Source of the DNA: Pseudobutyrivibrio sp.
Lineage (GTDB): Bacteria; Bacillota; Clostridia; Lachnospirales; Lachnospiraceae
NCBI GenBank assembly: GCA_024684955.1
Contig: JAIKWH010000062.1
Span: forward strand, 25,239 to 89,238
DNA length: 64,000 bases
Direction of reading: 5' to 3'
A model generated the notes under the pieces. It did not search any database. It was given only the letters and a program-made list of their open reading frames with translations, and was not told the origin of the DNA. Of the stretch, positions 60,025-64,000 are shown one piece after another (positions within the stretch are counted from its first letter, which is position 1; each line of letters opens with the position of its first letter). A program made the position numbers and the translations under genes.

Positions 60025-60975
60025 ATGAAATACATCAACACCCTCAAAGAGGGAGACAGAGGAACAGAAACTTACCTTTGCAAAAAGAAAACTCAGGGCA
60101 TTTCTAAAACCGGCAAGGCTTTTGAATCCCTTACACTTTGTGATAAAAGTGGCACTATTGACGCCAAAATATGGGACGTGGATTCTGAGGGAATCAGCGA
60201 TTTTGACGAGCTGGATTTTGTCACTGTTACAGGAGATATTACTAGTTGGAATGGGGCATTGCAGTTTAACATCAAAAGACTGCGCAAGGCCAACCCTGGC
60301 GAATATGAACTTACAGATTACATCCCTGCTTCAAAAAAGGATATTGGGCAGATGTGGAAGGACCTTATGGCATTGATTGATTCAATCCGTACCCCATATT
60401 TCAACGCTTTGCTTAAAATGTTTTTTGTGGATGACAAGGATTTTATCCAGGACTTTAAGAATCATTCTGCTGCCAAGTCTGTGCACCACGGTTTTACAGG
60501 TGGGCTTTTGGAGCACACCTTGTCTGTTGCTACAAACTGCGACTACTTTAGCAGGCAGTATCCATTTTTGGATAGGGATTTGCTTATTACAGCAGCTATT
60601 TTCCACGACATCGGAAAGGTAAAAGAACTTTCTGATTTCCCACGGAATGACTATACTGACCAGGGACAACTTTTGGGCCATATTTATGTGGGCGCAAATA
60701 TGTTGGACCGGGCCATTGACCATATTGATGGTTTCCCACAGGTAAAGAGGGATGAGCTTATCCACTGTATTCTTTCTCACCATGGGGAGTTAGAATTTGG
60801 TTCACCTAAAAAACCAGCTATCGCTGAGGCTATTGCCCTTTCTTTTGCAGACAACATCGACGCAAAACTTGAGACAATATATGAGGCTTTGGAAAATGTT
60901 GAGGAAAACAATCTTACTTGGCAAGGTTTTAACCGCCTTTTGGATTCAAACATCCGCAGAACAGGTAAAAATTAA
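60025..60975 (+). CDS. yhaM: 3'-5' exoribonuclease YhaM family (OB-fold + HD)
   Basis: OB region, VHHGFTGGLLEHTLSVA, IFHDIGKVKEL, LSHHGELEFGSPKKPAIAEAIALSFADNIDAK. Confidence 0.92.
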   Translation: MKYINTLKEGDRGTETYLCKKKTQGISKTGKAFESLTLCDKSGTIDAKIWDVDSEGISDFDELDFVTVTGDITSWNGALQFNIKRLRKANPGEYELTDYIPASKKDIGQMWKDLMALIDSIRTPYFNALLKMFFVDDKDFIQDFKNHSAAKSVHHGFTGGLLEHTLSVATNCDYFSRQYPFLDRDLLITAAIFHDIGKVKELSDFPRNDYTDQGQLLGHIYVGANMLDRAIDHIDGFPQVKRDELIHCILSHHGELEFGSPKKPAIAEAIALSFADNIDAKLETIYEALENVEENNLTWQGFNRLLDSNIRRTGKN

Positions 60976-62444
60976 TGAATAAAAACGATATTGTACGTCT
61001 CACAATAGAAGATATGTCCCTTGAGGGGGCTGGAATTGGTCACACTGATGGTGTGACCATTTTTGTCAAAGATGCCATAGTAGGAGATGTAGTAGATGCA
61101 ATAATCACCAAGGTTAAAAAAACTTACTGCTTTGCCGCTTTAAAAGAAGTACTTGAGGCATCCCCTTATAGGGTAGAGCCTCCTTGTCCCATTGCAAGGA
61201 CCTGCGGCGGCTGTCAGATTATGCAGATAGACTATGACAAGCAATTGGAGATAAAAGAAAACATTGTAGCAAACAATTTGGTAAAAATTGGAGGCTATGA
61301 AAGGACTTTTGTTGACAGTGTCCATGAGCCTATTATTGGGATGGAGAATCCTTTCCGCTATCGCAACAAGGCCCAGGTCCCTATAGGAAAAGATAGGGAT
61401 GAAAATATTGTGGCTGGCTTTTACGGAGCCAGAAGCCATAGGATTGTGCCAAGCAGGGATTGTATGATTTGCTCTCAAAAGAGCATGGAGATAGTTTATG
61501 CTGTCATAGACTACATGAATGAAAATGGTGTGGCAGCCTATGATGAGGAAACTGGCAAGGGACTTATTCGCCATGTTCTAGTGAGAGAAGGTAAGGCAAC
61601 AGGCCAAGTCATGGTTTGTGTGGTGGTAAATGGAGACAAATTACCAGCAGTGGATTCCCTCATTAGCCATGTAAGGACAGTGGAGCCAGATTTGGCATCT
61701 CTTGTTATGAATATCAATACCCGCAGGGACAATGTAATCATGGGATATGAGACCATGACCCTCTTTGGATCAGACGCTATATTAGATTCCATCACTCTGA
61801 AAAATGGTGATACCATCAGTTTTGCTATTTCAGCCAATTCTTTTTACCAGGTAAATCATGACCAGATGGAAAGGCTTTATAGCAAGGCCTTGGAGTATGC
61901 TGATTTGCACGGGGATGAACAGGTATGGGACCTGTATTGCGGCATAGGAACCATTTCCCTGTCTATGGCAAAAAAGGCCGGCAGGGTAATAGGAATAGAA
62001 GTGGTGCCCCAGGCCATTGAAAATGCAAAGGCCAACGCCAAGTTAAACGGCCTAAACAACGCTGAATTCTATTGTGGAGAAGCGGAGGTTGTTCTCCCTG
62101 AAATATATAAAAAGATGGCAAGCCCTGACGTAATTATGGTGGACCCACCTAGAAAAGGCTGCGATACAGTGGCACTAGACACCATGATTAAAATGAAGCC
62201 AAACCGAATCGTCTATGTCAGCTGTGACTCCGCCACCCTAGCCAGAGACCTTAAATATCTGGAAGAAGGGGGCTACCATCTGAAAAAATACACAGTGGTA
62301 GATCAGTTTGGACACACTATGCATGTGGAGACTGTGGTTCTTCTGTCCCAACAAAAGTCGGATGATCATATCGAGATAGAGATTAATCTGGATGAGATTG
62401 ATGCGACAAGCGCTGAGGCGAAGGCTACATATAAGGAGATCTAG
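60975..62444 (+). CDS. 23S rRNA (uracil-C5)-methyltransferase, RlmD/TrmA family; C-terminal tail interrupted by amber stop
   Basis: TRAM domain, Fe-S motif CPIARTCGGCQIMQ, VWDLYCGIGTISL, VDPPRKGCD; frame continues after TAG at 62442-62444. Confidence 0.9.
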   Translation: MNKNDIVRLTIEDMSLEGAGIGHTDGVTIFVKDAIVGDVVDAIITKVKKTYCFAALKEVLEASPYRVEPPCPIARTCGGCQIMQIDYDKQLEIKENIVANNLVKIGGYERTFVDSVHEPIIGMENPFRYRNKAQVPIGKDRDENIVAGFYGARSHRIVPSRDCMICSQKSMEIVYAVIDYMNENGVAAYDEETGKGLIRHVLVREGKATGQVMVCVVVNGDKLPAVDSLISHVRTVEPDLASLVMNINTRRDNVIMGYETMTLFGSDAILDSITLKNGDTISFAISANSFYQVNHDQMERLYSKALEYADLHGDEQVWDLYCGIGTISLSMAKKAGRVIGIEVVPQAIENAKANAKLNGLNNAEFYCGEAEVVLPEIYKKMASPDVIMVDPPRKGCDTVALDTMIKMKPNRIVYVSCDSATLARDLKYLEEGGYHLKKYTVVDQFGHTMHVETVVLLSQQKSDDHIEIEINLDEIDATSAEAKATYKEI

Positions 62445-62636
62445 GACTGGGTGCAGGGGAAGTACGGATTTCATGTGACGAATCTGAATATCGCTCAGGT
62501 GAAACAGAAGCATGGGATCATTGAGCGGGAAAACTACAATAAGCCGAAGTTTGCAGATAGCAAGCAACCGGGATGTCCGGAAGAAAAGGTTAAGGCGATA
62601 GAGGATGCTTTGAGGCATTTTCAGATGATATAAAAA
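62445..62636 (+). pseudogene. In-frame C-terminal tail module of the methyltransferase beyond the TAG (possible separate ORF from GTG 62451)
   Basis: DWVQGKYGFHVTNLNIAQVKQKHGIIERENYNKPKFADSKQPGCPEEKVKAIEDALRHFQMI in the same frame as the upstream gene; AAGGAG at 62433-62438. Confidence 0.65.
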
Positions 62637-62660
62637 AACAATCATAGGAGTGAAAAAACA

Positions 62661-63119
62661 TTGGAATATAGAGTAGCAACTTTGGATGATATTGATTTAT
62701 TGACTGCTTCCCGTGTTAAAGTTCTAAGAGCGGCAAATAAGTTAGATGATTCTGTTGATATGACAGAGGTAGAAAAAGAATCTTACAATTATTATCAGAA
62801 AGCATTGGCTGATGGTACGCATTTTGCAATTCTCGTAATGGCTGATGGTGAATTTATAGGCGCAGGCGGTGTTAGCTTTTATAATGTTATGCCGACCTAT
62901 CATAATCCAAGTGGCAAGAAAGCCTACATCATGAATATGTATACAGATCCGAGCTATAGAAGACAGGGAATTGCTTATAAAACATTAGATATGCTTGTTA
63001 ACGTCGCAAGAAAACGAGAGATAAATCAAATATCATTGGAAGCGACAGATATGGGGCGGCCTTTATACGAAAAATATGGTTTTGTTAAAATGGAATCTGA
63101 AATGGAACTAGTCTTTTGA
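62661..63119 (+). CDS. GNAT family N-acetyltransferase
   Basis: NMYTDPSYRRQGIAYKTLDMLV acetyl-CoA motif; TTG start with SD ataggag. Confidence 0.88.
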   Translation: MEYRVATLDDIDLLTASRVKVLRAANKLDDSVDMTEVEKESYNYYQKALADGTHFAILVMADGEFIGAGGVSFYNVMPTYHNPSGKKAYIMNMYTDPSYRRQGIAYKTLDMLVNVARKREINQISLEATDMGRPLYEKYGFVKMESEMELVF

Positions 63120-63207: not shown

Positions 63208-63251
63208 ATACAAGGTGTAACATCGTGACAATATGATAGTTGGAGGTAAAC

Positions 63252-64000
63252 ATGAATCATAACATATTGAAACAGGTTATTTTAGAGCAGATTGAAATCA
63301 TACAAAATGCTGAGATTGTCAGTCGTGACTATGATTTTGAAAAGAATATAAATTACATTCTTGTTGGACTTAGAAGAGCAGGGAAATCAACACTTTTATA
63401 TAAGATTGCCAGAGAACTTGTTGAAGCAGGCTGTGACTGGTCTCAGATAATCTATGTTAACTTTGAGGATGATAGACTGTTAGGCTTCTCAAAGGATGAC
63501 TTCAATGACATTGTTGAGACTGCATATGAGTTGACGGATGCAAGTGAGATATACTATTTCTTCGATGAAATTCAAATAATAGACGGATGGGAACACTTTG
63601 CCAGAAGAATGGCTGATCAGAAAAAGCATGTGTACATTACAGGAAGTAATGCAAAAATGCTCAGTTCTGAGATGGAAAAAGTTCTTGGAGGAAGGTATCT
63701 ATCCAAATTAATTATGCCTTTTTCATTTAGAGAGACACTTGATTATAAGGATATAGTTCATGATGAAAAAGCATTTCTTACATCGTCCAAAGTTGCCAAG
63801 ATTCGCAGAGGATGTCAGGAATATATTATGAGTGGAGGATTTCCTGAAGCACAGCATTTATTCAATAAAAGGGAATATATTAAGAGTGTTTACGAGAAGG
63901 TTCTTCTTGGTGATATTATAGAGCGTGAAAAAGTGAACAATAAGATGGCACTTAGGCTTATGATAAAGAAAATAGCTGAAACAGTTATGCATGAAATTTC
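63252..64000 (+). CDS. AAA ATPase (AAA_14/DUF4143-type), 3' truncated by window edge
   Basis: Own translation: MNHNILKQVILEQIEIIQNAEIVSRDYDFEKNINYILVGLRRAGKSTLLYKIARELV...YYFFDEIQIIDGWEHFARR...YITGSNAKMLSSEM...YIMSGGFPEA; SD ggaggt. Not in the ORF track because it runs off the end. Confidence 0.88.
   Translation, partial: MNHNILKQVILEQIEIIQNAEIVSRDYDFEKNINYILVGLRRAGKSTLLYKIARELVEAGCDWSQIIYVNFEDDRLLGFSKDDFNDIVETAYELTDASEIYYFFDEIQIIDGWEHFARRMADQKKHVYITGSNAKMLSSEMEKVLGGRYLSKLIMPFSFRETLDYKDIVHDEKAFLTSSKVAKIRRGCQEYIMSGGFPEAQHLFNKREYIKSVYEKVLLGDIIEREKVNNKMALRLMIKKIAETVMHEI

Follow-up and report, generated by a model that had tools for sequence, protein, structure and literature searches.

The C-terminal tail of rlmD in the window, by which we mean the whole 64,000-nucleotide stretch of Pseudobutyrivibrio sp. 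DNA analyzed here, very probably stems from a large serine recombinase (LSR) whose C-terminal domain was left on the methyltransferase gene by site-specific integration, and the amber codon that splits the tail is probably the product of later decay. The window itself provides the attL side of this event only; the LSR fusions, the host-derived LSR ends and the empty site come from relatives.

The rlmD/rumA-type 23S rRNA (uracil-C5) methyltransferase gene occupies positions 60975–62444 of the forward strand, with an ATG start at 60975 and 489 codons up to the TAG at 62442–62444. Its product matches the RlmD/RumA equivalog model TIGR00479 with 444.8 bits (cut-off 183.55) over positions 3–432 of 432 in the model and residues 16–452 of the protein. 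The full-length domain is thus complete by residue 452, ahead of the tail, and the enzyme itself extends to around residue 460. RlmD orthologs in the congeners (those of the G-numbered genomes that are presumed to be Pseudobutyrivibrio) are mostly 79–85% identical to the window protein, and most have no tail, ending directly after H-T/V-E-T. The sequence-only reading had noted some 63 in-frame codons past the TAG, pointed to uninterrupted tails in related proteins and proposed, among other options, a nonsense change in an acquired module, and all three points are supported. The stretch behind the amber (62445–62636, forward strand) consists of 63 codons (DWVQ...FQMI) and a closing TAA at 62634–62636; related tails are uninterrupted at 76–88% identity; and the aligned position carries sense codons in relatives, namely CAG in G002 and G027, mostly GAG, GAA, AAG or AAA otherwise, and CAA, AGA and CGG in one relative each. 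The current rlmD product would consist of a normal RlmD core and about 29 leftover residues.

The amber lies inside an imported module of 104 codons (62322–62633, forward strand), defined by its span of homology and by LSR::tail fusions, that comprises an attachment core, a linker and the LSR C-terminal domain. The core, CATGTGGAGACT (62322–62333, forward strand), encodes H-V-E-T and forms the methyltransferase–tail junction, the attL of a rumA-integrated element. DNA homology to the tails on RumA paralogs of G002 and G006 starts at this core and stops at 62633, the last tail codon, with 83.7–84.3% identity over exactly 312 bp; the bodies of these paralogs share only about 35–37% protein identity with the window RlmD. 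The RumA paralog of G013 and the RlmD of G022 have 309 bp in common at 90% from the same starting point, and G057 and G033, which belong to different families, share 1857 bp of tail and flank at 95% behind different methyltransferases. The module is thus mobile and enters at the HVET codons. Comparison with the empty site in relatives places the break at the same GAGAC as in the window core. The homology bounded by 62322 and 62633 confirms an earlier proposal that the tail is a separately acquired module. The GC-richer codon choice cited for it is also real (GC3 of 0.55 in the tail vs 0.44 in the body, where equally long stretches range from 0.38 to 0.51), but the edge placed near 62390 has to move to 62322.

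A similar attL appearance would result from the transfer of a tail between paralogs by homologous recombination, and this counts against our reading. Gene conversion with a RumA-paralog tail, without an integrase, would fit the position of the nearest tails, which are carried by the RumA paralog in species other than this one, and an assembly without a recombinase. We nevertheless consider it improbable: the homology begins exactly at the attachment core with no common tract upstream or downstream, the same junction is flanked by a recombinase and attR in relatives, and the RumA paralog of the window's own genome has a different, short end. This second RumA (L305, G000:C45:1-2700) terminates in a short extension, NRKPDSHIKLSLDMDEYYDIIEKEEAEKK, that resembles the end of rlmD in G008 (L035) and is possibly another kind of deposited end. 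As for the missing element, no PF07508 recombinase was detected in the window's genome (84 contigs, 86% complete), which has a single core match, and the contig ends 1.4 kb past the tail, at 64000, the end of the window. Given this contig end and a draft assembly without PF07508, attR and the element are not seen here.

The assignment of the tail to LSRs comes from relatives, where it continues proteins with Resolvase, Recombinase and zinc-ribbon domains (Pfam) in frame. A genome scan confirmed at least 515 tail loci, and 153 loci from genome contigs and IMG/VR were classified. The genome contigs contributed 58 RlmD/RumA::tail loci (55 open), seven tails with an LSR upstream (five open) and 15 further short ORFs, many of which start with HVETV.LLS, as expected for displaced tails; IMG/VR contributed 53 open in-frame LSR::tail fusions. 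In the fusions, the attachment core (the HVETV.LLS codons) falls between the LSR body and the C-terminal domain. In many IMG/VR fusions (L222–L230, L232–L266), the tail domain is present but the HVETV core is not, a pattern suggesting that the domain is a long-standing C-terminal part of this LSR clade. Nine tail positions are invariant among 25 LSR::tail proteins, and the mean dN/dS is 0.06 for tails on RlmD and 0.09 for those on LSRs, the latter from only five pairs. Searches of Pfam, NCBIfam and PDB sequences returned no credible family for the tail; matches to ribosomal protein L23 fell below the cut-off and this identity was rejected, and the sole match in PHROGs is a 69-position family of unknown function. 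AlphaFold predicts three helices for the tail alone with moderate confidence (pLDDT 67.5), and the model has no match in the PDB. In a model of the full LSR (pLDDT 75.6), a disordered linker (residues 533–580) contains the core and precedes a helical end domain; the low pTM of 0.32 means that only this layout is used.

The relatives also retain the other side of the exchange. In G022, G013, G014 and G025, the gene bearing the tail has an LSR gene downstream of it, whose frame runs on into the displaced host end: the LSR C-termini are SQIETVAKLTHN in G022, SQIETCALLSK in G013, SQIETIAKIERI in G014 and NQLETIAKIERIK in G025, each followed by a stop codon. The LSR of G007 likewise ends with a host-derived sequence, NQLETVALIKKA. 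The right half of attR in G014, after GAGAC, matches the unoccupied RumA2 end of G003 with 97.7% identity over 86 nt. Because both halves share the methyltransferase frame, the circle released by excision must encode an LSR::tail fusion. The contigs with fused LSR::tail agree with such a circular form, and each could also represent an attR with an older tail. Tails can differ on near-identical recombinases: the LSR bodies of L130 and L275 are 97.4% identical over 535 aa and their tails 41.7%, and their DNA homology extends only up to the core. In the Anaerococcus plasmid pAPRE01, the recombinase and tail overlap the core in different frames, as in a streptococcal report discussed below.

These observations support a mechanism in which the element carries its attachment site inside its own recombinase gene, at HVETV.LLS codons common to the rlmD/rumA end and located between the recombinase body and the small helical C-terminal domain. 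Crossing-over at the shared codons gives each gene, in frame, the 3' part of the other, so that the methyltransferase acquires the recombinase domain and the recombinase acquires the short native methyltransferase end. The element in the window has presumably since been lost, been degraded or gone missing from the assembly, and the amber would have arisen recently, as a loss-of-function mutation in a domain dispensable for the methyltransferase. We also consider, tentatively and as inference only, that the LSR domain acts as a state switch, present in the excised circle and lost to RlmD upon integration. If so, loss of the domain would alter recombinase activity or directionality until excision restores it, RlmD would be the domain's parking place, and the amber would deprive the recombinase of a complete domain even after excision.

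The most plausible reading of the amber is that a mobile-element scar has decayed in an ordinary way, and such decay following integration is also the simplest one: congeners have further disrupted tails, TAG serves as a normal stop in the window, and the PylS search gave no match above the cut-off. The tail is interrupted by TGA in G012 and by TAG in G027, the rlmD genes of G003, G015, G018, G021 and G025 contain stops and/or deletions, and in G007 the disrupted tail is on the RumA paralog. Similar internal deletions of ~170–200 bp that keep the late part of the module are seen at the RlmD/RumA ends of G003, G021 and G007 (L034, L051 and L287). Eight congeners have breaks of other kinds in this module, so such breaks are common, and an assembly or sequencing error behind the TAG, with an intact tail in the living strain, is rather unlikely, even though this is a single draft metagenome-derived assembly (84 contigs, 86% completeness), a single C-to-T change from CAG suffices and the remainder behind the amber was under strong past constraint. 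Since the codons past the amber still show dN/dS of 0.05–0.08 vs four related tails, the break in the window is probably recent. The rule that intact tails keep and broken tails lose a linked recombinase was rejected: the tail of G007 is broken and its recombinase is still linked, so decay is not simply tied to recombinase loss.

The conserved codons behind the stop, and an AAGGAG (62433–62438) located 12 nt upstream of a GTG at 62451, would also suit a functional amber, either read through at some level or followed by re-initiation to give a separate small protein. Both ideas had been raised from the sequence, and neither is supported; we regard a functional amber as very unlikely. TAG terminates 11 of 49 ORFs in the window, rlmD included, and the ten others are at least 150 aa long. 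The best PylS match in the genome scores 30.3 bits against a cut-off of 178.15, and 13 of 14 control genomes yield similarly weak matches. The AAGGAG and GTG are ordinary K-E and V codons in intact relatives, and the other congeners break the tail by different stops and deletions.

Reciprocal 3' exchange between rumA and an integrase gene has been published for Streptococcus ICEs and C. difficile CTn5, so this type of event is known. The Streptococcus ICEs encode a single serine integrase, target rumA and have their attachment site inside the gene for that integrase; the two genes trade their 3' parts reciprocally, which alters both C-termini (Ambroset et al. 2016, PMC4701971). Target, attachment site and reciprocity are shared with the Clostridia described here; the streptococcal exchange reportedly changes both frames, whereas ours keeps the frame and transfers a conserved recombinase domain. 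Integration of CTn5 fuses rumA to the element ORF CD1844A, giving a hybrid protein confirmed by PCR, and a CTn5-type link to rumA is also mentioned for other species (2015, PMC4320837); that study did not describe CD1844A as part of a recombinase. In a third report, rum is a known integration hotspot, and phage Phi m46.1 and its relatives use an 18-bp attB at the 3' end of streptococcal rum, GCATCACGTGGAGTGTGT, which matches the CAYGTNGAG core position of the window (PMC4288039). Phi m46.1 is a Siphoviridae-type prophage with resistance genes, for which the passages covered here describe no transferred domain. Myxophage Mx8, as cited in PMC4701971, has attP within its integrase gene, and integration replaces 112 C-terminal residues of the integrase by 13; this is a tyrosine integrase with another target, and the displaced piece is not said in that passage to reach a host enzyme. 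We found no description of in-frame shuttling of a conserved recombinase domain in the literature searched, coverage of which is incomplete. A recombinase origin explains the recurring C-terminal tail on Lachnospiraceae rRNA methyltransferases; it indicates that the tails belong to recombinases and are not domains of the enzyme, and cautions against assigning them an RlmD function. That the exchange is in frame further suggests that integration edits the recombinase itself, which offers an idea of how element direction may be controlled.

To the right of the module, the window carries a GNAT acetyltransferase gene (62661–63119, forward strand) directly behind the tail and an ATPase-like ORF (63240–64000, forward strand), named for a Walker-type motif (GLRRAGKS) and not from a family search, that is cut by the contig end. 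An Rfam search of the window gave no match. The GNAT gene is located elsewhere on the chromosome in congeners, so the right flank here is not the standard one. Within 62636–63119, homology to the copies in G017 and G019 begins just past the tail TAA and takes in the ribosome-binding site, which suggests that the gene was attached at this point in one piece. In G052, three tails lie within 19 kb (L111 and L013, G052:C2:5106-23639), one on RumA, one on a 675-aa recombinase ORF and one alone, an arrangement that suggests stacked integrations at a single rumA site. A distant tail with 37.6% identity that starts with HVETCVLLSHK is found on plasmid pY13 (L064:4001-4267) and in about 90 Enterococcus plasmid records. 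Within the erm(B)-ant(6)-spw-lsa(E)-lnu(B) resistance cluster, this tail is located between spw and lsa(E), and it may be a scar from a time when the cluster was inside a rumA-type element.
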